DNA of 64,000 nt from an uncultured Pirellulaceae bacterium (GTDB lineage Bacteria; Planctomycetota; Planctomycetia; Pirellulales; Pirellulaceae), in NCBI GenBank assembly GCA_905480235.1, contig CAJQPP010000031.1:1-64000 (forward strand). Reading direction: 5' to 3'. Both the position numbers and the translations under genes were made by a program. A model generated the notes under the pieces. It saw nothing but the letters and a program-made list of their open reading frames with translations, did no database searches and was not told where the DNA came from. Below are positions 3,773 through 37,030 of this stretch, piece after piece (position 1 is the stretch's first letter; each line of letters starts with the position of its first letter).

Positions 3773-4594
3773 ATGTTACAAGCCAAATTGGTTGTCATCG
3801 GTGGTGCCAAGGCAACGGAAATATCCCTCAAGCTACCTGCCGTAATCGGTCGTGGCCGGGACGCCGGCCTGACGCTACCTCATCCATTGGTGAGCCGAAA
3901 TCACTGCCAATTGTTCGAAAGCGACGGCATGCTACATGTGAAAGATCTAAATTCTCTGAACGGCACCTACGTTAACAGCCAGCGGATCGAAGACACCGCG
4001 ACGCTTGAACCGGAGCAATTGTTGACCATCGGAAATGTAACATTTCGGGCGATTTACAGCCCCACGGATGCCAGCATTGCGGAGGTCGAGCCTTCGTCCT
4101 CCCATGTAATCGAATTTGAAGAAGTAAGCGCCTCGCCAGAATCTGACAGCCAGTTGGACCCGGCGGACGCGGAAATGCAAAACCGACCGACCGAGGAGAA
4201 ATCCCCCCACGAAGAACACCCGTCGGTGGTACCGGAGAATGCCTTCATAAAAACGGTTCATCTCGATGAATTGAGCCAATCGAGCGATATCCTCGACGAA
4301 CTCTCAGAGGATGTGACCCCAGGTTCTCCCGAACATTCCATCCTCGCGGCCTTGCAGGATGTCGGCTTGGGCGTGAATGGGCCCGAGCAAGCCAATATGA
4401 CCGATATTCGCTCTCAATTACCGGGCGACATGAAACCGGAAGTAAATCAAGTGGATGGTCTGGTAGTCGACCCTGCGCAAGCACCCGCTGACAAAGTAGA
4501 CCTACCCGAGATCGAGCTTAACGAGTCAGCCAACGACAAAGTCGAGGCTAACGAGTCGGCTCTGGGTACCTTCATTCGCAACCTCCCCCGCTAA
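3773..4594 (+). CDS. FHA domain-containing protein with acidic tail
   Basis: A 273-residue cytoplasmic protein. Residues 1-95 form a forkhead-associated domain, which binds phosphothreonine peptides: the core motifs GRGRDAGLTL, SRNHCQLF and LNGTYVN, including the Arg, Ser-Arg-Asn-His and Asn that contact the phosphate, are all present. The remaining 180 residues are acidic, rich in Glu, Ser, Pro and Asn, and probably disordered; they contain no recognised domain. The gene is followed 21 nt later by a sigma-70-like factor on the same strand, so a joint role in signalling to transcription through Ser/Thr phosphorylation is plausible but inferred. No kinase is in the window. Confidence 0.88.
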   Translation: MLQAKLVVIGGAKATEISLKLPAVIGRGRDAGLTLPHPLVSRNHCQLFESDGMLHVKDLNSLNGTYVNSQRIEDTATLEPEQLLTIGNVTFRAIYSPTDASIAEVEPSSSHVIEFEEVSASPESDSQLDPADAEMQNRPTEEKSPHEEHPSVVPENAFIKTVHLDELSQSSDILDELSEDVTPGSPEHSILAALQDVGLGVNGPEQANMTDIRSQLPGDMKPEVNQVDGLVVDPAQAPADKVDLPEIELNESANDKVEANESALGTFIRNLPR

Positions 4595-4615
4595 CCCAAA
4601 TGGTGTGGAGTAACG

Positions 4616-5257
4616 ATGAAACCTCCTTCTGAAATTGACCAAATGCTTATCCAACGGATTCGCAGCGGAGATGTTGACGCTTGGGGTCAACTGATTGCCC
4701 GTTACGAAGGTCGCCTGCTGGCTTTTGTGGAGAATCGCTTAACCAATCGCAGCGCCAGCGAAGATATTGTTCAGGAAACGTTAGTGGGCTTTCTCAACAG
4801 CCTGCCCAATTACGATGGCAGACGCTCGTTGGAGGCCTACTTATTCACCATCTGTTCCTACAAGCTAACCGATTATTTGCGTCGCGAAGGTCGGCGGCCC
4901 GCCATTCCTTTTTCATCAAGCTCCGACTCCAGCGGTGACTGGCAAATCGCCGGCCACGCGAGACCCGCCAGCAGCATTGCTCGCAGCACAGAACGCAAAC
5001 GTCTGGAAGAAGATGCGTTGGTTGAGGCGATCGCCAATCAGGTACAACGCTGGCAGGAACGGGGCGATTGGCTCAAATTAAAGTGCATTGAAATGCTTAC
5101 CGTCCGTGGCATGGCGAACAAGACGGCAGCCGCAACTTTGGGCATCACCGAACAACAGGTAGCCAACTACAAGTTCGATTTTCTGTCACGTTTACGAACC
5201 TTGATCAAACGCAAGAATCTCTCACAAGACGTCTTCCCTGAACTCCACGACGAATAA
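4616..5257 (+). CDS. RNA polymerase sigma factor, sigma-70/ECF-like
   Basis: 213 residues. The N-terminal half has sigma-70 region 2: LIARYEGRLLAFVENRL, ASEDIVQETLVGFLNSL and AYLFTICSYKLTDYLRREGRRP, the part that binds core polymerase and melts the -10 element. A Ser-rich linker follows, then a region 4-like helix-turn-helix around 150-200 (GMANKTAAATLGITEQQVANYKFDFLSRL). Region 4 is atypical, with extra sequence before the helix-turn-helix, as in planctomycete-specific sigma groups. ATG with GGAG 5 nt upstream. It follows the FHA gene by 21 nt and is probably co-transcribed with it. No anti-sigma gene is next to it. Confidence 0.85.
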   Translation: MKPPSEIDQMLIQRIRSGDVDAWGQLIARYEGRLLAFVENRLTNRSASEDIVQETLVGFLNSLPNYDGRRSLEAYLFTICSYKLTDYLRREGRRPAIPFSSSSDSSGDWQIAGHARPASSIARSTERKRLEEDALVEAIANQVQRWQERGDWLKLKCIEMLTVRGMANKTAAATLGITEQQVANYKFDFLSRLRTLIKRKNLSQDVFPELHDE

Positions 5258-18792: not shown

Positions 18793-19755
18793 TTAGCGAT
18801 TTTCAACTTGCGTCATCAACCACTCCCATTGAGGAGAATCTCCGAATGCCTGCATGGTGGGCTGAATGTATCGCAATGGTCTTGCGTGGCCTTTGACTTT
18901 GAACTTATCGCCTTTTTGGAGAATCGGTTTCGCTTCTGGCATATGGCCAAACGCGTAAGTGCCCGCCGCTTGGCAGGGAAACCAATACCCCTTACCGGCA
19001 GCGTCTTCCAAGTAAAACTCGGGGTAAGTGTGCTCGGGAATCCAGACCGCTCGTGCCGGGATACCACGCGCGCGGCACAGTGCAATAAACAGCGAAGACA
19101 ACTCTTCGCAATCACCATGCCCTGCTGCCAAGGCATCTCGGCAAGTGCGAATTTCGGTGTCGAACTTGTAATCGATATTTTCGCGAACCCAAGTATAGAT
19201 TGCCTCCACTTGCTGCCAGGCGGCGAGATCTTCGGTAGCCGAGAATTGCTCAGCGATCTCCTTAATCTGCTCGTCATTACTTTCGATGAAAGGACTGGGG
19301 GTCAGGTACCCGCGAAATTTCCGGGACTTTTTCTTTCCCATCACAAACTTAGCAGGGTCGCCAGGGGGCGATGATGCCAGTTTTTCAATCTCGACCGTGA
19401 CGGTCGCCTCTGCAATTTCCCCGGCTGCTAAACGAGGTACTTTGAAGAACATTTGCTTGGCATCGCTGCCCAGTTTTTTTATTCTTGCGCCCTGAATGTT
19501 TTTGGTTGTGTCAACGGACAGCACTTTAATATTCTGTTCGGGCCAATCTACTGGTACCGGAAACGTCACCTGAGCATTTCGCGTTTCACCGGTTCCGGTG
19601 ATGCGCACCCCGAATTTCCAGGTCGTGGTGGCGGGCAGTTGCACGGCGCTGGGTAACTGAGCGGCGGAGGGTTCATTTGCCGACTCTTGAGCATTTACCG
19701 AGACGGTAATACTGGCCAAGACTGCCAGGCTCCATAATAGATTTGGATTTTTCAT
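18793..19755 (-). CDS. Exported transglutaminase-like cysteine protease/transferase, catalytic residues intact
   Basis: 320 residues. Signal peptide (ends SVNAQ), then a beta-rich N-terminal domain (about 45-150) and a transglutaminase-like core (about 165-290). The catalytic Cys is C216 in GHGDCEELSSLF, the His is H242 in EHTYPEFYL and the likely Asp is D251, so the triad is complete. Members act as cysteine peptidases or cross-linking enzymes; substrate unknown. ATG with AAGG upstream. An adjacent paralogue of near-identical architecture at 19837-20793 has lost the Cys and His, showing a tandem duplication. Confidence 0.85.
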   Translation of the reverse strand: MKNPNLLWSLAVLASITVSVNAQESANEPSAAQLPSAVQLPATTTWKFGVRITGTGETRNAQVTFPVPVDWPEQNIKVLSVDTTKNIQGARIKKLGSDAKQMFFKVPRLAAGEIAEATVTVEIEKLASSPPGDPAKFVMGKKKSRKFRGYLTPSPFIESNDEQIKEIAEQFSATEDLAAWQQVEAIYTWVRENIDYKFDTEIRTCRDALAAGHGDCEELSSLFIALCRARGIPARAVWIPEHTYPEFYLEDAAGKGYWFPCQAAGTYAFGHMPEAKPILQKGDKFKVKGHARPLRYIQPTMQAFGDSPQWEWLMTQVENR

Positions 19756-19836
19756 ATGTGTTTACCTTATGACTCCCACCCCTCAGACCTAGGCCTGTGG
19801 CAGGCAGGGTATTTCCGGCCCAGGACACAAATGGTC

Positions 19837-20793
19837 TTAGCGGTCACGAGCTGGCAGGACGTCACGCAAAAAACGCACCCGAGGTTGACGTCCACCCCTC
19901 ACGTTTCCGGTCACAAACTCCACCACAAAGCGTTGTCTTTGGCTCTTTTCAGGAATCTTGATATTGTCGCCCTTCTGAATGATGACACGTGGGTCGGTCA
20001 TCTGCCCGAACTCTTTCTTACCCGCCAAAACCGCAGGGTACCAACGCCCATTACCCGACTCGTCCTGTAAGTAAAATTCTGCGTACTCCGCTTCGTCAGC
20101 CCACACCATACGTGCGGGAATCTTATTGGCACGGCATAATGCGATAAATAAATTACTGCGGTCTTCAGGTGAACCCTTTTTCTGTTTGAGAGTTTTTTCG
20201 GCACCCATCACCTTCTTACCTTCCATGGCAATTTCGCTGGTTACGAAATCGTAAAACTTGCGTGCGCGCTCCCAAGGTACGTCGGTCTCTTCGACCAGTT
20301 CTTTTGCTTGATTTTTGACATTCCGTTTCCGGCTTTCAATCAAAGGGCTGGGGCTAAGACTCAAACGCACCTCTCTTGGTGGGCGAGCCGGGATTACCAA
20401 ATGGTCCGTGCGGTCGGGATAAGGGATCGCGAACACCCGAATATCCAGAATGACGTTGATCTCAACCGCGGTGCCTTTGTCGATCCGCGGGAACTTGGCA
20501 TACATTTGCCGTATTCCGTCAGAGTCTCGAAAATCTGCCTTGGTAGCTTCCTTGGGAATATTTTCTTCGTACACATTGACCTGTTGTTCAGGCCAATCGG
20601 TTGGCACGGGAAACGTCACCACCATATTGGAAATGGGTACGTTGGAGGTCTGTATCTTAGCTCCGACGCGCCACGTTCGCTTGACTGCTGACCCACCAGA
20701 CGCCTTGGACGTCGTGGATTGAGCATGAGCGACGTGCTGCACAGCGCACAGCGCCAGCAAGCTGGACAAACCAACAACAAGCTTTTGGAACAT
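19837..20793 (-). CDS. Exported transglutaminase-like paralogue, predicted inactive
   Basis: About 318 residues from ATG 20793 (GAGGT 6 nt upstream; the frame extends to a TTG at 20811). Same layout as the neighbour: signal peptide ending VAHAQ, beta-rich domain with VTFPVPTDWPEQQVNVY (VTFPVPVDWPEQNIKVL in the neighbour), then the transglutaminase-like core. In the shared motif the catalytic Cys is replaced by Pro (P209, GSPEDRSNLF against GDCEELSSLF) and the His by Ala (A235, DEAEYAEFYL against PEHTYPEFYL), while the Asp (D244) and the rest of the fold are kept. It is probably a binding or regulatory pseudoenzyme. It lies upstream of the active copy on the same strand, with about 80 nt between. 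Confidence 0.85.
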   Translation of the reverse strand: MFQKLVVGLSSLLALCAVQHVAHAQSTTSKASGGSAVKRTWRVGAKIQTSNVPISNMVVTFPVPTDWPEQQVNVYEENIPKEATKADFRDSDGIRQMYAKFPRIDKGTAVEINVILDIRVFAIPYPDRTDHLVIPARPPREVRLSLSPSPLIESRKRNVKNQAKELVEETDVPWERARKFYDFVTSEIAMEGKKVMGAEKTLKQKKGSPEDRSNLFIALCRANKIPARMVWADEAEYAEFYLQDESGNGRWYPAVLAGKKEFGQMTDPRVIIQKGDNIKIPEKSQRQRFVVEFVTGNVRGGRQPRVRFLRDVLPARDR

Positions 20794-20817
20794 TGTTACC
20801 TCAAAATTCAAACCACG

Positions 20818-22736: not shown

Positions 22737-23540
22737 ATGCTGACCTTACTGGCCATCTACTGCATTTTGCTCGTCGCAGCCTCTCTCATCGGAGGTTGGC
22801 TACCGAACTTGGTCAAATTGGATCACCGACATACTCAAATGGTCTTGAGCCTAGTTTCGGGCGTCATGTTGGGGGTGGCATTTTTTCATCTGATACCGCA
22901 TTCCATCGAATTACTGGACAACAAAAAGACGGCCATGGTTACCACTCTGGTGGGTCTACTGTTTATGTTTTTCATGATTCGCATGTTTCATTTCCACTAC
23001 CATGACCCCGCACACGAGCAACACGCCTGCGAACACGAACACCACGAACATGAAATCAAAAGGGAAGACATCAGCTGGATCAGCTTGGCGATTGGTTTTG
23101 CGGTTCATACGATCATCGATGGCGTGGCTTTGGCAGCCGCAGTGGGAGCCGCGTACGATGAATCAGAAGAGACCCGCATCGCCGGGCTGGGAGTCTTTTT
23201 GGCCATCTTGCTGCACAAACCACTCGATGCTTTAACCATCACCTCTTTCATGGCTGTTCGCAATTGGCCTAAACCCAAACGCCAGGCTGTGAATGTTTTG
23301 TTCGCCCTAATGATTCCGGCTGGCGTGGCTTTATTTTTTCTCGGCATTGGTGTTTTTGAGAGCGAACAAAAACTTCTCTTTGGCACCACCTTGGCATTCT
23401 CGGCAGGCGTTTTCCTTTGCATATCGCTAAGTGACCTGTTGCCCGAAGTCCAATTCCATTCTCACGACCGGTTGGCCATGTCCGGCATGTTAATTCTCGG
23501 AGTCGTTGCAGCAGTTATCGTAGATCTGTTGCCACTGTAG
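22737..23540 (+). CDS. ZIP family metal transporter
   Basis: 267 residues with about eight transmembrane helices. A His-rich cytoplasmic loop between TM3 and TM4 (FHFHYHDP...EHEHHEHE, residues about 83-105) binds metal ions, and the transport-site motifs HTIIDGVAL (TM4) and LLHKPLDALT (TM5) are present. It probably imports zinc or another divalent cation into the cytoplasm. Single gene, convergent with the SRPBCC gene. Confidence 0.92.
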   Translation: MLTLLAIYCILLVAASLIGGWLPNLVKLDHRHTQMVLSLVSGVMLGVAFFHLIPHSIELLDNKKTAMVTTLVGLLFMFFMIRMFHFHYHDPAHEQHACEHEHHEHEIKREDISWISLAIGFAVHTIIDGVALAAAVGAAYDESEETRIAGLGVFLAILLHKPLDALTITSFMAVRNWPKPKRQAVNVLFALMIPAGVALFFLGIGVFESEQKLLFGTTLAFSAGVFLCISLSDLLPEVQFHSHDRLAMSGMLILGVVAAVIVDLLPL

Positions 23541-26549: not shown

Positions 26550-29500
26550 ATGAAGCTAACGGAAATCGCCATTGATGGTTACAAAGGAACTCCGAACACC
26601 CACTTGCATCATTTAGCGAGTGGCTTGAATGTTATTTTCGGAACGCAAGCCACTCAACTGCGAGCGATCGCGGATTTCATACCCGATGTTCTCTATGGCT
26701 ACGATGCTCGCAAACGCCCCACCACGATGTGGGGAAATGGTTACCTACAGGTAAAATCGGACGGTCAAAAATTCCGGGTATCTCGAGATCATTCCAACCT
26801 GCTGGGTCACTTTGCCATTTCCGATTCCCAAGGAGATTATTCCTCTCCGGGCACTCCTGAAATCGCCGCTTCGCTAAACCAATCCGCTGGCGGGAGTTTC
26901 TTTTTTACGTCATTGGAAGATACCCGGTGGAACTGGCAGGATTTCTTGCACCAACTAAATTCCGTTTTTCAACTGCAGCGTTTGGAATCCCCAAGCCCCA
27001 TGCCATTTCTTGCGGAACAAGATCAACATGCATCTTGGAAGCGAGCAGCAGAGGCACGTACCAGGCGACTGGATTCCATGACCGGGGAACTGGAAAGACT
27101 AAACCGAGAGCGAACGAGGTTAATTTCGGAACAGGCGCGAGTGCCCGGCGATCATCATAATCGCCTACAAATCCTGGACCGCGAGATCTCCGAACTCCAA
27201 TCGGAAGCTGATTCACTCAACGCTGTATTGCATATCGAACAAGAAAAAGAGCTGGAACTGAATCGGCAGATTGATGATCTCGAATGCTGGATTGATCGCG
27301 AGCACACCAACGTTCGGAAAATCCCTGTCACTCGTTCGGCACCCAAACATCTAGAGCTTTATTACGAACGATTGGATGATGTGGACTATCAAGTACGCCT
27401 TTGGCGTTCCGCGCAATCTGACATTCAGAATCAAAGGTTGCGATTACGCGATGAAATGGTGTCGCATGGTGAATTGAACATCTTGTCTCAAGAACATCCC
27501 TATCATGAAGCCCGGGAAATCATCTTGACGCTAGAGTCACGCATCCAATCGGCCGCAGAGACCGCCCGGTGCTGGGAACAATCGCCCACCCCTCTGGATA
27601 CGTCTCGCAATCTAACCGCTTTGTGCCAGGAAATGAGAAACGACCTGCAGGCTTTGTGCGATGAGCTAAAATCTCAATACAAACACGTGCGTTACAAAGC
27701 AGCCGTTGCGGAACTGAAACAGCTCCGTCGTTGTTACCACGAAATGGACGAAAGCGTGCGGCGTTTGTTAGTTCGCCGCGAGTCCGTGATTGATGACATC
27801 CGCCGACTCGACCCCATGGGAGCAGATGCCATTAGTCTCTGTGAGCAGCAATTCACACTTTGTGCTCAGCAGGAGGGTTCATGGGCAGCTCGCCAAAAAT
27901 TTGTTTCTACGGAACCGCCGATCACCAGCGAAACAGCAACCGATTATCGAACCGTGCATCCGGACCTCAGCCGGGAACGGACGCGATTGGTGGGTCTGAA
28001 TGCCTTACACACACGTTGTCAGGAGCAAATCGTTGAATCGCAACGCGAAATCAAGGCTTGTGAAACCCAATGGCAGAAGCATGTTGATGAACGCAATGCC
28101 CTACTGGCATTTTGGAACCAGGATCACACAACTCGCATCGATTCCCTGAATGCTCGCGTGCGGTCTCTGGAGAGTGAACGACAGGCGTTGCAATTGCAAA
28201 TTGATTCGGACAAGCCTTGGATGAGCTGGCGTCCCAATTTCATTTTTGAGGAAGCCAATCGGTTCATGGAGCAAATCTCCAGTCATGCCCTGCGTTCCCT
28301 GCGGATCAATTCCCAATCGCAGCTGACTGTCGCGAAAAATCATGATTCCGACATTCACGTGGAAAACCTGCCAGCGATCGAACAAGGATACGTCCGCCTA
28401 AGCCTGTCGCTTGCCGCGATTGAACAACTCGCACTACGCGGAATTCGCAGGCCTATCGTGATCGAGGATGCAGAACTCCATAACCAAGAAAATGCATTGA
28501 TCCAAGTCCTCGAATCATTCTGTGGCAACGATCACCAGGTCGTGATGTTGACGGGAAATCCCGCCCGCATGCAGCAGGCCGAGAGATTAAACAGCACGCG
28601 TTTCGAATTGCCTGACACGAGCATTACTTCACCCTCGTGGTATCCAGAAACACCACATCAACCACGTGAATCCTATCCAATCACTCCCGCACCCACCTCC
28701 AACCATCCTTGGAATTTGGATGCTTTTGATTCTCCAAGTCCGCTGACCTCGGCAACGTCGAGTGACTGGCATAGTTCGCCGACCGTTTCGACGGTAAAAC
28801 CAGAATCCCTGCTTCCAACTCCTTTGGTCGCCGCGCCCCGAATCGGTTGCACGCGGCAAACGTTGTTGCAGGATATCGACTTGGTGGAGTCTATTTACCT
28901 AACTTCGTTAGAGAATTTAAAAATCCAAAACGTCGGGCAATTGCTGGACGTTGATTTGAGCGAGCAAAAAAGCAATCTAATTCGCAGCGGTTTCAATCTG
29001 GAACAACTGGATCGCTGGCAAGCTCAAGCTTGGTTGCTAATTTGTTTCTCCGACATGACCGCTAACGACGCCCGCGTCTTACTGGGCAGCGGTGTCGATC
29101 GACCCGAGATGTTGGCTCAACTGGAAGAGACAGAGATTTTGGATCGGATCCGTCAATACCTTGACACATCGGCCGGGAAAAGAAGTAACGCAAGTTACTC
29201 CCAATTTTCCACTGAGCGTTTGCGAGCATGGGCCAATCGCGTCAACACGGATAATGGATGGCGAACCTACCAAAGAAGCCTGCTGCGGTCCCCCCAACTT
29301 GCCAGCCATACAGATGTCACCGTGACCCCGGCTCAACGACTTGGCGAACGTCGAGCCTCCGCGCGTCGGCCATTGCAGAAACCGGTTTTGCATCAATCGA
29401 AACCAGAAGTAACGACATCCAAAAAACAGAAACCAAGCGTAAAGATAAAAGCAAAATCAGATTTCCAATTTTTCCTTAAGCCCTCCGACGAATTAGAAGC

Positions 29501-29900
29501 TGCTCCCTCGATCGGTCCCAAGACGGCAGAAAAATTTGTTGATATCGGCATCGTAACGGTGCAGGATTTCTTGCAAGCCGCTGTTTCCGATATGGCGACC
29601 CAATTGGGTAATCGGCGATTATCGAAAAATGTTTTGAAAACGTGGCAACAACAATCTCGCCTCATGTGCGACGTTCCCAATTTACGCGGGCATGATGCAC
29701 AAATCCTTGTCGGTTGCGAAATTTTCCACGCGGAAGAACTGGCAAAGCACGAAGCCGCATCCCTTTTGGACGTGGTACTGCCCTTCGTTGAATCGAAAGA
29801 GGGCTCTCGTATGTTGCGAAATGCACGTAAACCCGACCTCGCAGAGGTCACCCATTGGATTCAAGCCGCGAACTATGTTTCGGCACGCAAAGCCGCTTGA
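26550..29900 (+). CDS. SMC/SbcC-like coiled-coil protein with degenerate ATPase motifs and C-terminal DUF4332-like domains
   Basis: 1116 residues from ATG 26550 (GGAG 7 nt upstream; the open frame starts at 26421 without a good site). The N terminus MKLTEIAIDGYKG...LASGLNVIFG is the first strand and loop of RecF/SbcC/YhaN-type ATPases, but where GPNGxGKST is expected the sequence is GTQATQLRAIADF: no Walker A Lys, Gly or Ser/Thr. A coiled-coil arm spans about 165-565. The C-terminal ATPase half has no LSGG signature (YVRLSLSLAAIEQLAL) and a Walker B-like PIVIEDAE near 633. After a Pro/Ser linker come two HhH-like DUF4332 regions, about 755-900 and 983-1110 (PSIGPKTAEKFVDIGIVTVQDFL). Probably a DNA- or chromosome-associated scaffold; no SbcD/YhaO nuclease partner is adjacent. 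Confidence 0.8.
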   Translation: MKLTEIAIDGYKGTPNTHLHHLASGLNVIFGTQATQLRAIADFIPDVLYGYDARKRPTTMWGNGYLQVKSDGQKFRVSRDHSNLLGHFAISDSQGDYSSPGTPEIAASLNQSAGGSFFFTSLEDTRWNWQDFLHQLNSVFQLQRLESPSPMPFLAEQDQHASWKRAAEARTRRLDSMTGELERLNRERTRLISEQARVPGDHHNRLQILDREISELQSEADSLNAVLHIEQEKELELNRQIDDLECWIDREHTNVRKIPVTRSAPKHLELYYERLDDVDYQVRLWRSAQSDIQNQRLRLRDEMVSHGELNILSQEHPYHEAREIILTLESRIQSAAETARCWEQSPTPLDTSRNLTALCQEMRNDLQALCDELKSQYKHVRYKAAVAELKQLRRCYHEMDESVRRLLVRRESVIDDIRRLDPMGADAISLCEQQFTLCAQQEGSWAARQKFVSTEPPITSETATDYRTVHPDLSRERTRLVGLNALHTRCQEQIVESQREIKACETQWQKHVDERNALLAFWNQDHTTRIDSLNARVRSLESERQALQLQIDSDKPWMSWRPNFIFEEANRFMEQISSHALRSLRINSQSQLTVAKNHDSDIHVENLPAIEQGYVRLSLSLAAIEQLALRGIRRPIVIEDAELHNQENALIQVLESFCGNDHQVVMLTGNPARMQQAERLNSTRFELPDTSITSPSWYPETPHQPRESYPITPAPTSNHPWNLDAFDSPSPLTSATSSDWHSSPTVSTVKPESLLPTPLVAAPRIGCTRQTLLQDIDLVESIYLTSLENLKIQNVGQLLDVDLSEQKSNLIRSGFNLEQLDRWQAQAWLLICFSDMTANDARVLLGSGVDRPEMLAQLEETEILDRIRQYLDTSAGKRSNASYSQFSTERLRAWANRVNTDNGWRTYQRSLLRSPQLASHTDVTVTPAQRLGERRASARRPLQKPVLHQSKPEVTTSKKQKPSVKIKAKSDFQFFLKPSDELEAAPSIGPKTAEKFVDIGIVTVQDFLQAAVSDMATQLGNRRLSKNVLKTWQQQSRLMCDVPNLRGHDAQILVGCEIFHAEELAKHEAASLLDVVLPFVESKEGSRMLRNARKPDLAEVTHWIQAANYVSARKAA

Positions 29901-31916: not shown

Positions 31917-33182
31917 TTAACCGCTGGCGATGGCATTCCCAGCGACAAAGCCCGTGCTGAAGGCTGCCTGAAAGTTATATCCACCAATGGGTCCATCCAC
32001 ATCCAAGATTTCGCCAGCCAGATACAATCGCGGCACCAACCGGCTTTCCATGGTTTGTGGGTCGACTTCACCTAATTCAACGCCACCTGCGGTAACCTCC
32101 GCTTTGGCAAATCCCAGCGTGCCGGAAATATCCACCGGGCACCGCTTACTTTGTTGAACAATCCGATTCAATCGCTTCTTGCCAAGTTCGGCCAAGGATT
32201 GGTCTCCAGGAATACCAGCCAAATCGCAAAGCTCCTGAGCGAGTCGTTTTGGTAAAACATGGCAAAGCTCATTAAATAACTGTCGTCCACTGGACCGAAC
32301 TGCAGTGGATGTCAGGTCGTTTCTTAATTTGTCCTCGCTCAGATCCGGCAACCAATCACAGATCAGTTTTTTGGGTAAATTATTGGCTGGGTCAGTGACC
32401 AAACGACTGATGTTCAGTGCCGCCGGTCCAGAACATCCTCGGTGGGTAAACAAAAAAGAACCGCGAAAGCAGGAGCGGTCGGAACGAACTAACTGCGATT
32501 TTCCATTTTGCAATTGGACGCTGAGACCAACATCGGGAATCGTTACGCCAGAAAGACGATGTACCCATTCATCGCGGCATTTGAGGGGAGTCAAAGCCGG
32601 CCGCGGCGCGACCACCGAATGCCCCAGCTCTTTTAACCACGCGTATCCATCACCCGTGGTTCCGCAGCCGGGATAACTTTGCCCGCCACACGTCAAAACC
32701 AATGCATGACAAAAAAAGGTTTGCTCCGTGCAGGAAACGACGAAGTGATCTTGGGTTGGGGCAATGCCCGTTACCGATGTCCCCGGCATAATCTGGACGC
32801 CTGCCTGCCTAGCCCGGGTGACTAACGCATCGCGTACATCGATGGCTCGGTCACTTTGGGGAAATATTTTACCCGTCTCTTCAACCTTGGTTCCAACCCC
32901 CAACTGATGGAAAGTATCGACGACGGCTTCCGGAGTCAGCGTTGCCAAGGCGTACTTCAGAAAACGGCCTTGGGGTTTCCCAAATGCATCTGCCACACCC
33001 CGCCAGGAGGCGTTGTGCGTAATGTTGCAACGCGTTCCACCAGACATCAATATTTTAACGCCTAGTTTTTTATTTTTTTCAATGAGCAGCACGCGCTGCC
33101 CGCGTTTGGCAGCTGTGGCGGCGGCCCACAAACCGGCCGCTCCCGCTCCCACGATAATCACATCATATTTCGGATTCATCAT
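31917..33182 (-). CDS. NAD(P)/FAD-dependent oxidoreductase, HI0933/BaiN-like
   Basis: 421 residues. N-terminal Rossmann FAD motif DVIIVGAGAAGLWAA, family signature LMSGGTRCNITH, second nucleotide segment LVLTCGGQSYPGCGTTGDGY, and C-terminal FAD contact GPIGGYNFQAAFSTGFVAG. The family is flavoproteins of unsettled function, some of which reduce bile-acid-type substrates. Its ATG overlaps the stop of the metal permease-regulator gene (ATGA), making it the last gene of the metal-uptake operon; why a flavoprotein is coupled to metal import is unknown. Confidence 0.92.
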   Translation of the reverse strand: MMNPKYDVIIVGAGAAGLWAAATAAKRGQRVLLIEKNKKLGVKILMSGGTRCNITHNASWRGVADAFGKPQGRFLKYALATLTPEAVVDTFHQLGVGTKVEETGKIFPQSDRAIDVRDALVTRARQAGVQIMPGTSVTGIAPTQDHFVVSCTEQTFFCHALVLTCGGQSYPGCGTTGDGYAWLKELGHSVVAPRPALTPLKCRDEWVHRLSGVTIPDVGLSVQLQNGKSQLVRSDRSCFRGSFLFTHRGCSGPAALNISRLVTDPANNLPKKLICDWLPDLSEDKLRNDLTSTAVRSSGRQLFNELCHVLPKRLAQELCDLAGIPGDQSLAELGKKRLNRIVQQSKRCPVDISGTLGFAKAEVTAGGVELGEVDPQTMESRLVPRLYLAGEILDVDGPIGGYNFQAAFSTGFVAGNAIASG

Positions 33183-34702
33183 GACGGATCGGATTCCACT
33201 CGATGCACAAAAACCGCATCGGCTTGATCATGGGATAGTTCGATGGTTGAGCCGTCTTCGGTAACCAGCGACCAGCGAATTCCATCAGCGCTGCGAGGCC
33301 CACCCGACACTTTGGTACCCGGCATGAGACGATCCCGCAAAGCAGCGTCCTCTACACGCACGATCTCTGCCCGAAACCCTTCTCGCAACAGACTAGAACG
33401 CACCTCTGAGAGTTCTTCAAAGTCGACAAAATCCTCGGGGATCGTACTGCCGTGGGGATCTTTTAATGGATGTCCGAGCTTGTCGTCGAGGTAATCGATT
33501 GTCTTTTCGTCATTCATGTGCTCCAACTTGTGCGCCTGCCCATGCAATTCGTTGGCGGGCGTTCCCATTCGATCCAAATAGGTTTCCCAAATGCGATGTG
33601 CCCTCAACAGTCGCCTGCCTTCCCGACGTCCCTTTGACGTTAATCGCAGCCCGGCATCTTTTTGGTCCAGTAGATCTTGGCGAATCAACTGCATGATGGC
33701 TCTGCGAATTTTGGGTTTATTGGATGCAATGTGCCGTACCACATCATTGATCGGCACCCATTCTTGCTCGCTTCGCAAGATCGCACCCAACACATCTTCT
33801 TTAATTTCCTGCGGCACAGCTCGCCGGCGGCGATTCCAATCCACCAACAAACCGTACTTGGGCGCTAACACCAAAGTCGCCAAAAAGAAGGCGGTTCCCG
33901 TAATCACAATCGAGGGGCCAGGCGATGCGCCAGCGGCATGGGCCAGAAAAAAACCGGCCCAGAAACAGCTAATCCCTATGGCAGCCGCCGCCACGATCAT
34001 GCGATTGAGTCGATCGAACAACAAATACGCCGAGGCGGCTGGCGTAATGACGAGTGCCACCACCAGGATAACTCCGGCAATCCGTACGCCACTCACCACC
34101 ACCAAGGAGGTGCAGGCGGTCAATAAATAATCCACGGCCACCACAGGCACGCCGATCGACGCGGCCATCACGGGATCAAAACTGGTTAATTGCAATTGGC
34201 GAAAAAACATCATCACAACGGCCACAATAAACGCCGTCACCAATCCGGCAATCCACAATTCCGAATTGCCCACCGAAATTACCGAACCTACGATGAAATG
34301 GTAGATATCAATATGGATGTATTGTCCTAAGGATTTCATGGAGATGGCAAACGCACCGAGAGCAAAAATACCGGTGTACATAATCCCAATCGCCGTGTCC
34401 TGTTTGACGCGTGAAACCCGCGTCACAAAACCCACCATGCCAACGGTTACAACACCCGCCAACAGCGCTCCTAGCAACATAGCGCCGACATGAGCTTCCG
34501 TGCCAAAAAGCAACTTCATCAAAAGATATCCACCGACCACTCCCGCCAACATGGCATGGGCAATGGCATCCGACAAAAACGAAAGGCGGCGCAGGATGAT
34601 AAAACAACCGACGACACTGCAGGCCAATGACACCAAGGTCCCCACCACCAGCGGTTTAATAAGGTGCCCGTTCGCGAGATGGAATTCTGTTAACCAATCC
34701 AT
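33179..34702 (-). CDS. Metal ABC transporter permease fused to a DtxR-like metalloregulator domain
   Basis: 507 residues. Residues 1-285 are an ABC-3 (ZnuB/MntB) permease with about eight helices (LVSLACSVVGCFIILRRLSFLSDAIAHAMLAG at the N terminus). Residues about 300-365 form a winged helix (VPINDVVRHIASNKPKIRRAIMQLIRQDLL), 366-430 a DtxR-type metal-binding dimerisation region with H369, E373, H387, H391, E394 and H395 matching the DtxR pattern (His in place of the Cys), and 440-507 an SH3/FeoA-like end. TAATG overlap with the ATPase gene upstream, ATGA overlap with the flavoprotein downstream. The fusion could sense metal at the membrane and control uptake or transcription. Confidence 0.92.
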   Translation of the reverse strand: MDWLTEFHLANGHLIKPLVVGTLVSLACSVVGCFIILRRLSFLSDAIAHAMLAGVVGGYLLMKLLFGTEAHVGAMLLGALLAGVVTVGMVGFVTRVSRVKQDTAIGIMYTGIFALGAFAISMKSLGQYIHIDIYHFIVGSVISVGNSELWIAGLVTAFIVAVVMMFFRQLQLTSFDPVMAASIGVPVVAVDYLLTACTSLVVVSGVRIAGVILVVALVITPAASAYLLFDRLNRMIVAAAAIGISCFWAGFFLAHAAGASPGPSIVITGTAFFLATLVLAPKYGLLVDWNRRRRAVPQEIKEDVLGAILRSEQEWVPINDVVRHIASNKPKIRRAIMQLIRQDLLDQKDAGLRLTSKGRREGRRLLRAHRIWETYLDRMGTPANELHGQAHKLEHMNDEKTIDYLDDKLGHPLKDPHGSTIPEDFVDFEELSEVRSSLLREGFRAEIVRVEDAALRDRLMPGTKVSGGPRSADGIRWSLVTEDGSTIELSHDQADAVFVHRVESDPS

Positions 34703-35526
34703 TATCTAGGTGGCCTCCCCTCTCCAGTGCCTGGCACGAGCCCCTTCTGCAAGACCTCCTCCAGTGTGTGGTTGGTGAGAGCCTCAAAGACGCGTAACTT
34801 GCCCTCGTAGACCTCGCTTAGCAATTCCGGTTCCAGAACTTGCGTGGGCGATCCGAAAGCGAACATTCGTTGTTTCAGTAAGATCAGCAAATCAAAATAC
34901 TCGCAAGCTGTCTCCAAGTCGTGGTGGACCACCACCATCGTTTTTCCTTTTTGGCGAGCCTCGGTCAACACATTAAGAATCGCGCCTTCCGTGGCCGCGT
35001 CGACACCCGCGAACGGTTCATCCAACAACAAAATATCCGCATCTTGTGCCAAAGCTCGTGCCATAAAAACACGTTGCTGTTGGCCACCTGACAGTTGACC
35101 AATTTGTCGTTTTGAAAACTCACTCATCCGCACTTGTTGCAACGCACGATCGGCAAGGGCATAGTCATTTCTCGACATGTCTTGCCACCAACGTTTGCTG
35201 CCATAACGCCCCATTAGGGCGACCTCGCGTACGGTGATTGGAAAATCCCAATCCACCGAACCCCGTTGGGGAACGTAGGCGACCCGCCCTTTGACACGCG
35301 CAACATCCTCGCCAAGGATTTTAACCGAACCGATATCCGGTTTGACAAAACCAAGAATGGCTTTGATTAACGTCGATTTCCCCGACCCGTTTGGGCCAAT
35401 CACGCCGACCAGTTTTCCCGCTGGGATAGCCAAGGAAACATCCAAAAGTGCAGGGACCGGACCATAACTGACGGTCAGATTATCTACCTCGATAGCCGGC
35501 TTGGATGCACTTTGAGAGGAATTCAT
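34702..35526 (-). CDS. Metal ABC transporter ATP-binding protein
   Basis: 274 residues. Walker A GPNGSGKST, Q-loop VPQRGSVDWDFPITV (typical of Zn/Mn/Fe importers), signature LSGGQQQR, Walker B ILLLDEPF with catalytic Glu, and H-loop VVHHD are all intact. It energises the neighbouring permease; the stop overlaps the permease ATG. Confidence 0.95.
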   Translation of the reverse strand: MNSSQSASKPAIEVDNLTVSYGPVPALLDVSLAIPAGKLVGVIGPNGSGKSTLIKAILGFVKPDIGSVKILGEDVARVKGRVAYVPQRGSVDWDFPITVREVALMGRYGSKRWWQDMSRNDYALADRALQQVRMSEFSKRQIGQLSGGQQQRVFMARALAQDADILLLDEPFAGVDAATEGAILNVLTEARQKGKTMVVVHHDLETACEYFDLLILLKQRMFAFGSPTQVLEPELLSEVYEGKLRVFEALTNHTLEEVLQKGLVPGTGEGRPPR

Positions 35527-35607
35527 GCGTATCTCGGTAGGGGAATGTAACCTAAAACAACTTGTCCTTGGACGACGGTTCTTGCCTGTTCATAATGCAA
35601 TGAAATA

Positions 35608-36138
35608 TCAATCTTCCGGCTTCCCATAGTCGACGACATCGATCCGCACCAACTTGCTGATCGGTCCCTTTTGATCGGCCCAAACCAACTCGTGGGCCAT
35701 CTCGTTACCATCCCGGATAATCGACACACGAAAGGAACGAGCAATTTCAGATTGAGGTGTCTGGGTAGGGGAATCCAAACCGAACGCCCCTCCACTGGAT
35801 TGTGATCCGGTCTCAACGGGGGTGACCTGAATGAGAAAATCATTCAAGCCTCGTTTGATATCCGTCACATTTTCAATTTTTACTGGAACCCCCGCTGCCA
35901 TCAACTCATTTGACTCCAGCAGCACATTGTCGCGAAAAGCGACTTTGATCGCTGGAAATCCAAAACTGTTTCCTTGAATATCAAACGTGCATACAACGTT
36001 GATGTCATACCGCCCGCTGGAATCCAATTCGGCGACTTGCGTCGGGAGTGGCTTGATTTGATCTGTGAAAAAAGCGTAGCTCCAAACAAACCCCACAATT
36101 AAAGCCGCAAGGACAACAGCCAATAGAGTACGAATCAT
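35608..36138 (-). CDS. Single-span membrane protein of unknown function in the metal-uptake operon
   Basis: 176 residues with one N-terminal transmembrane helix (TLLAVVLAALIVGFVWSYAFF) and a beta-rich extracytoplasmic domain (YDINVVCTFDIQG, FRVSIIRDGNEMAHELVW). No recognised family. Its ATG lies 4 nt after the stop of the solute-binding protein gene and 81 nt before the ATPase gene, so it is almost certainly in the same operon; an accessory role in metal import is inferred from place only. Confidence 0.75.
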   Translation of the reverse strand: MIRTLLAVVLAALIVGFVWSYAFFTDQIKPLPTQVAELDSSGRYDINVVCTFDIQGNSFGFPAIKVAFRDNVLLESNELMAAGVPVKIENVTDIKRGLNDFLIQVTPVETGSQSSGGAFGLDSPTQTPQSEIARSFRVSIIRDGNEMAHELVWADQKGPISKLVRIDVVDYGKPED

Positions 36139-36142
36139 GAGA

Positions 36143-37030
36143 TCACTTTAATGCAGCAACGATGGTTAGTATATTTTCCCGCATCATGCCGATATAAGTT
36201 TCCCCTGCTGTACCGCGAGGGCCCATTGCGTCGGAATAAAGATGTCCGCCGATCTTGACCCCGGCATCTCGCGCGATCTCGCTGATCATTCGCTGATCCA
36301 AAGAGGTCTCCACGAAAATGGCGGCCACACCGGTTGCCCGAATTGAGTCGACCACCTTTTGCCGCCTTTCAACGCTGATCCCGCCAATTTCTTCGGTCGT
36401 CCAACCGGCTGGACTGATCGCACGGAAACCAAAGGTCTTACAGAAATACCCAAACGCGTCGTGGTGGGTTACTAACACGCGACGTTCGGCTGGTATTTGA
36501 TTTATTTGGTCATTGATCCAATTATTAAGGGCATTCAACTCGCCCAGATAAAGAGTGGCTCGCTGTTGGAACCGATGTGCATTTGCTGGGTCGATTTCGC
36601 TTACGGCCTGTAGAATATTTCGCACATAGATCGCCGCATTAGCCGGCGCGAACCAGGCGTGGGGATCGTTGACAAACCCATCCTGCCCTTCGACTTTGAG
36701 GGGCTGCACGCCGGTAATGCAAGTGACAATCGTTTTGCTGCTGTTTTCGGCCAGACGTCGCATCCATTCGGCGCCTTCCAAATGCCAACCATTTTCAAGA
36801 CATAAATCCGCCCGCTGCACCATTTCGGCGTCTTCGATGCGAGTTTGGTAAGTATGAGGGTCCTGTCCGGGCGCGAGAACGCATAGTACTTCCCAATCAT
36901 CCCCCACGATTTGCCGGGTAAAATCACTTATTTGAGTGGTGCTACAGACGACGACTTTTTTCTGTGCCTCAGCAACACTGGAAATCCAACTCATCAAGAT
37001 GATCGCTGCAATAATCACCGAACGCAGCAT
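36143..37030 (-). CDS. Zinc/manganese ABC transporter substrate-binding protein
   Basis: 295 residues. Signal peptide ending SVAEAQ, then a cluster A-I metal-binding protein (ZnuA/MntA/TroA type): metal His in DPHTYQ and DPHAWF, a third His in VTHHDAFGYF, and a Glu/Asp site near VETSLDQR. There is no His-rich loop as in ZnuA of Gram-negatives, which leans slightly towards Mn or Zn without certainty. AAAGG precedes the ATG. It is the first gene of a five-gene operon (binding protein, unknown, ATPase, permease-DtxR, flavoprotein). Confidence 0.93.
   Translation of the reverse strand: MLRSVIIAAIILMSWISSVAEAQKKVVVCSTTQISDFTRQIVGDDWEVLCVLAPGQDPHTYQTRIEDAEMVQRADLCLENGWHLEGAEWMRRLAENSSKTIVTCITGVQPLKVEGQDGFVNDPHAWFAPANAAIYVRNILQAVSEIDPANAHRFQQRATLYLGELNALNNWINDQINQIPAERRVLVTHHDAFGYFCKTFGFRAISPAGWTTEEIGGISVERRQKVVDSIRATGVAAIFVETSLDQRMISEIARDAGVKIGGHLYSDAMGPRGTAGETYIGMMRENILTIVAALK

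Follow-up and report, generated by a model that had tools for sequence, protein, structure and literature searches.

A planctomycete family of SMC/Rad50-type proteins that has repeatedly lost its ATPase motifs and carries DUF4332 tails

The window analysed here, a 64,000-nucleotide stretch of contig CAJQPP010000031.1 from an uncultured Pirellulaceae bacterium, encodes on its plus strand a protein of 1116 amino acids in a single open reading frame (ATG at 26550, stop at 29900, no internal stops). This protein belongs to a family of SMC/Rad50-type proteins that has repeatedly turned into pseudo-ATPases and acquired new tails that resemble the helix-hairpin-helix (HhH) type; it shares ancestry with YhaN-type ATPases, has no nuclease partner gene beside it, and is now most constrained outside its head. 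The family is real and under selection, and our literature search found no description of it. SMC and Rad50 proteins are ATP-driven machines, and a widespread family that keeps their shape while repeatedly dropping the ATPase separates the job of the rod from that of the motor.

An SMC/Rad50-type head without canonical ATPase motifs

A Pfam scan of the window protein matched no head model, and a PDB sequence search with the protein alone returned no match. Its homologues in related genomes align with it from end to end, some of them scoring on PF13514 (AAA_27), PF13476 and SMC_N of Pfam, and the profile of the family matches PDB chains of SMC3 and Rad50 with expectation values (E) of 1e-13 to 1e-12. 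Profile-profile comparison (hhalign) of the window subclade with its intact paralogues, which we label YhaN2 (PF13514-type, without DUF4332; loci picked as PF13514 or BLAST matches), gave a probability of 99.8 and an E of 4.9e-28 over residues 1-691. An AlphaFold model built from a 17-row alignment (mean predicted local distance difference test score, pLDDT, 74; predicted template modelling score, pTM, 0.36) retrieved with Foldseek the heads of Rad50, MukB, Lamassu LmuB and Smc5/6 (best E 2.9e-10); the low pTM and high root mean square deviation are what would be expected of a flexible rod, the match being carried by the heads and coil. The head of the window protein is of the SMC/Rad50-type fold, split around a coiled coil. 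The first-pass annotation of this DNA had proposed a head of RecF/SbcC/YhaN type and descent, and alignment, tree, profile-profile comparison and fold search agree with it, the head structure prediction that it suggested having recovered the fold. Its coil of roughly 400 residues lies at residues ~157-558, conserved apex included. No separate hinge fold is visible in the model, in which the coil arm takes up ~400 residues in all, and no conserved neighbour gene at the compared loci offers itself as a kleisin partner, a distant kleisin gene not having been sought.

Alignment with YhaN2 locates each ATPase motif and its replacement. Walker A reads GTQATQLR(A) where YhaN2 has GPNEAGKT(T) and departs from GxxxxGK[ST], and the ABC signature reads LPAIEQG where YhaN2 has LEVLSRG/LSRGTRE and departs from LSxG; the LSRG of YhaN2 falls on AIEQG or its neighbourhood, and the glycine of the signature position is kept (IEQG). 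Walker B persists as a weak IVIED aligned with LVLDD, its acidic pair staying as E-D, and the H-loop histidine of FTCHEH is an asparagine in LTGNPA. The lost Walker A, the absent LSGG signature and the Walker B-like remnant that had been read from the sequence before are thereby confirmed at their aligned positions. A local sequencing or assembly error was rejected, as the loss is common to all three sampled metagenome-assembled genomes (MAGs) of the genus, two of them with full-length frames. The orthologue comparison that had been proposed for Walker A also turned up homologues with an intact GxxGxGKS/T (GSEGCGKS in L036, GPNGSGKT in L037); these do not point to a local error, because the loss is shared by the genus and recurs elsewhere in the family. 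To judge from these motifs, loss of the ATPase in the window lineage is well supported.

Across 96 family members the LSxG signature is lost in 88 and kept in 8, while the Walker A core (scored as GK[STAK]) is lost in 29 and kept in 67, and the Walker-A-positive members are mostly without the signature. Walker A and Walker B are gone in several descendant lineages and the signature in most. In a tree built from the head alignment after removal of the motif columns, the family forms one clade against YhaN2 (support 100/100), and a loss-only model places ~11 Walker A losses on it, at least 5 changes being forced by strongly supported branches; as several rows are long-branched and the larger trees were quick searches, the number is soft, but more than one loss is firm. 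The counts suggest that the signature went first and Walker A later. Because a single member (L185) keeps all three motifs, the ancestor of the family was probably an ordinary ATPase. In the taxonomic family f7, a kept Walker A goes together with a canonical Walker B, LDEPF (L184, L185, L187, L188, L196), and if an ancestor-like form is still active, it is best sought among these members.

Distribution and the intact paralogue

We measured the distribution of the DUF4332-fused form within the order. In the taxonomic family of the window ~135 of 172 genomes match the profile over a long stretch (best E at or below about 1e-90), the remainder being YhaN2-only or DUF4332-only; in f7 all 15 sampled genomes have the pseudo-ATPase family, one apparently without the tail; and the sampled genomes of the other families of the order yielded YhaN2 but no member. 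YhaN2 was found throughout the order and in part of the class, and nearly every genome with the family also has an intact-type YhaN2 paralogue. Walker A is kept at all 20 YhaN2 loci examined (L061, L062 and L065 among them), as are signature and Walker B in 19/19 aligned copies. The same 19 copies all have one or two membrane-type segments in the middle of the coil. The window protein has no such segment, and the hydrophobic stretches flagged in 4/96 family members lie in head or tail. An SbcD/YhaO-like phosphoesterase frame was recognised by its motif near 14 of the 20 YhaN2 loci, and Pfam agreed in those examples that were scanned; the phosphoesterase motif was found near none of the 27 family loci examined. 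In the window, too, a neighbourhood motif scan found no phosphoesterase gene near the gene, in keeping with the earlier remark that no SbcD/YhaO nuclease adjoins it.

The window genome has its own YhaN2 (L102, G000:C44:34258-37617, minus strand), otherwise open over ~1138 codons and interrupted by one in-frame TAA, which may be a MAG consensus error or else a true nonsense mutation; immediately upstream is a phosphoesterase gene (L102:4670-5938). Elsewhere in this genome (L101, G000:C68:60000-68000) stands a classical YhaN with an adjoining YhaO-like phosphoesterase, so that, apart from the pseudo-ATPase, the genome holds two or more YhaN-type systems.

Constraint has moved from the heads to the coil apex and the tails

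Compared with three relatives (L033, L035 and L036, of which L036 has its Walker A intact), the window protein is 35, 23 and 21% identical in the N-terminal half of the head, 42, 26 and 22% in the C-terminal half, and 72, 58 and 63% in the apex block of residues 366-430. The second DUF4332 copy reaches 51 and 50% in L035 and L036, L033 running off its contig. The YhaN2 proteins of three genomes (G000, G031, G029) are 73-82% identical in the P-loop and signature/Walker B segments, and 23 to 78%, mostly below 60%, in their coil segments. Conservation is therefore inverted: YhaN2 is most conserved in its heads, whereas the window lineage is most conserved in the coil apex and DUF4332.

Substitution rates agree in direction. 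Between the window gene and its full-length orthologue (L034/L120, 81% identity) the ratio of nonsynonymous to synonymous rates (dN/dS) is 0.115 overall, 0.20 in the N head, 0.12 in the C head, 0.09 in the apex region and 0.03 in each DUF4332, values that are rough as dS is high (~0.95). The head fold is maintained by selection (0.12-0.20), yet it is no longer the most constrained part. A pseudogene was rejected on the overall ratio, with intact 1116-codon frames in two species.

The DUF4332 tails

Two stretches match DUF4332 (PF14229; E 8.5e-22 for the whole protein) with 58.7 and 26.9 bits against a Pfam cut-off of 23.2, so that both of the C-terminal domains recognised in the first-pass annotation stand above threshold. 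The second bears an HhH-type hairpin, APSIGPKTAEKF, and an HHH_5 match (E 1.3e-5) reaches 26 bits, under its cut-off of 27. The nearest folds to the DUF4332 region, which is modelled as all-helical, are the HhH regions of Y-family polymerases, NusA and LigA, with Foldseek E near 1 and hence as a lead only. Between the copies lies a linker (residues 906-970) with a net charge of +12 and pLDDT below 50. The same genomes encode a second kind of DUF4332 protein (L057, L063, L067, L068, L069, L070) whose N-terminus appears to be like zinc-dependent phospholipase C, as Pfam confirmed in L067; this unusual combination has a bearing on the function of DUF4332.

A possible ATP-independent tether and its alternatives

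We propose that the window protein is a non-ATPase, SMC-shaped scaffold that probably tethers DNA, a proposal for which we see even chances. Comparison shows that it arose by duplication of the order-wide YhaN/SbcC-type ATPase (YhaN2), lost both the membrane segments in its coil and the adjoining SbcD-like nuclease gene, and gained two DUF4332 domains. Most descendants lack the signature that two heads require to sandwich ATP between them, and the window protein would no longer run an ATP cycle. Two subunits may pair via the conserved apex, and DNA may be held near the heads by the basic linker and the HhH-like DUF4332 domains; with an apex dimer and DNA held in this way, the rod would therefore be an ATP-independent tether, which statically tethers or spaces two DNA segments in place of ATP-driven opening and closing. 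The wider statement, that an SMC-like motor gave rise to an ATP-independent DNA scaffold in two planctomycete families through stepwise and independent losses, signature first and Walker A later, with the apex and HhH-type tails now the conserved parts, is offered tentatively, its chances falling a little short of even. Several points weigh against the tether. Apex pairing is suggested by conservation, DNA binding is putative, the Foldseek evidence on the DUF4332 model stands at E near 1, and both the whole protein and its DUF4332 domains are slightly acidic overall. The fusion to a phospholipase C-like domain suggests that DUF4332 may be a protein-binding module, and nucleotide may still matter outside the window lineage because many relatives keep Walker A.

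The charge and the fusion lead to another scaffold, one whose coiled coil binds proteins or the cell envelope in place of DNA and in which DUF4332 is a protein-interaction module. HhH-type folds can bind proteins, the DUF4332 copies have a net negative charge, and the phospholipase C-like fusion is the best argument for this reading; we nevertheless hold it to be unlikely, given that the conserved hairpin APSIGPKTAEKL resembles the type that binds the DNA backbone, that the linker is strongly basic, and that the ancestry lies with SbcCD-type DNA-end processing proteins. About equally unlikely, in our estimate, is that the dead head acts as a pseudo-enzyme regulator: paired with the head of an intact YhaN2 (or of an SMC protein), it would damp or steer the ATP cycle of its partner, as has been proposed for SMCL-1 of C. 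elegans. The near-constant presence of an intact-type paralogue and selection on the head fold would fit such a role, as would the similar decay of SMCL-1, with Walker A kept and signature and Walker B altered (PMC5373644). A partner in head-head contact should, however, hold its interface, and in the window lineage no folded part is less conserved than the heads; moreover, the window genome's own YhaN2 copy has an in-frame stop, and a poison head would have no need of long arms, a conserved apex or DUF4332. Most improbable of all is a family whose members go on working as ATPases in most species, possibly by way of a non-canonical site, with nothing more than a decaying gene in the window. 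The Walker A core in 67/96 members and the full motif set of L185 speak for it, but the dN/dS of 0.115 over intact frames in two species does not suit decay, the loss is common to three MAGs of the genus and occurred ~11 times in the family with frames intact, and even the Walker-A-positive members mostly lack the signature.

If the DNA tether is right, Pirellulaceae would have in this protein a candidate scaffold for the nucleoid or for repair. DUF4332 gains a setting in which to test what it does. One clade holds members that are intact and others that lack the signature, Walker B or Walker A, and with these intermediates the sequence of decay can be tested directly.

Features of the gene and its surroundings

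Table 1. Parts of the pseudo-ATPase gene, in window coordinates
Feature	Position	Strand	Evidence
Whole gene, 1116 amino acids + stop: SMC-like pseudo-ATPase with two DUF4332 domains	26550..29900	+	Open reading frame, domain matches, orthologue L034/L120
Head, N-terminal half (residues 1-130)	26550..26939	+	Alignment with YhaN2 and Walker-A-intact relatives; AlphaFold model keeps strand-loop-helix order
Walker A position, now GTQATQLRAI (residues 31-40)	26640..26669	+	Alignment; GTQTTQRRVI in L034, SSRPAIQDAI in L033
Coiled-coil arm and apex (residues 157-558)	27018..28223	+	AlphaFold helices 157-252, 265-305, 317-342, 348-420, 474-520, 524-558
Apex block 1, conserved (residues 266-300, YYERLDDVDYQVRLWRS...)	27345..27449	+	46-66% identity to L033/L035/L036 (N head 21-35%)
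Apex block 2, conserved (residues 366-430, ...AVAELKQLRRCYHEMDESVRRLL...)	27645..27839	+	58-72% identity to L033/L035/L036
Head, C-terminal half (residues 561-700)	28230..28649	+	Alignment, AlphaFold model, profile-profile comparison
ABC signature position, now LPAIEQG (residues 607-613)	28368..28388	+	Alignment
Walker B-like IVIED (residues 636-640)	28455..28469	+	Aligned with YhaN2 LVLDD
H-loop position, Asn670 replacing His	28557..28559	+	Aligned with YhaN2 FTCHEH
DUF4332 copy 1	28905..29162	+	PF14229 E 1.7e-5; all-helical in AlphaFold
Linker between DUF4332 copies, basic, probably disordered (residues 906-970)	29265..29459	+	Net charge +12; pLDDT below 50
DUF4332 copy 2 with hairpin motif APSIGPKTAEKF	29505..29873	+	PF14229 E 2.3e-15; HHH_5 E 1.3e-5; ~50% identity to L035/L036

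The adjoining genes are ordinary, encoding a DinB/DUF1572-type protein upstream and an amidohydrolase downstream, and no conserved operon partner was found beyond genus level, except for a metal transporter neighbourhood partly common to L039 and L054, near which parts of it are seen again. In the window its components, a ZIP-type metal transporter and a metal ABC transporter operon, lie at a distance on either side of the gene (22737-23540 and 33179-37030). A defence system was considered and rejected: PADLOC did not flag the window protein, and conserved partner genes are missing. A Walker-A-positive relative did draw PADLOC matches, which look generic, of the sort given by P-loops and coils. 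Further off, two paralogous secreted transglutaminase-like proteins are encoded side by side on the minus strand (18793-20811), and at 3773-5257 a gene for an FHA-domain-like protein is followed directly by one for a sigma factor of the extracytoplasmic function type.

Comparison with known systems

With YhaN/AAA_27 (PF13514) and SbcC/Rad50 the window protein has in common a head made from N- and C-terminal halves with a long coil between them, and common ancestry is indicated by the hhalign match to YhaN2 and by the Rad50 heads recovered by profile and fold. It differs from them in lacking Walker A, the signature and the H-loop histidine, in having neither a nuclease partner gene nor mid-coil membrane segments, and in its two added DUF4332 domains. 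SMC, MukB and Smc5/6 share the head fold, the coiled-coil rod and possibly a part in DNA organisation, whereas the window protein is without canonical ATPase motifs, shows no separate hinge in the model and has a coil arm of ~400 residues. The DUF4332 proteins of the same genomes have a homologous C-terminal domain, but those examined join it to a zinc-phospholipase-C-like N-terminus in place of an SMC-type head. SMCL-1 of Caenorhabditis is likewise SMC-derived and predicted to lack ATPase activity, its signature and Walker B being altered (PMC5373644); the window protein, in contrast, keeps a conserved coil and apex, has lost Walker A and has gained DUF4332, and the losses are repeated in its family.
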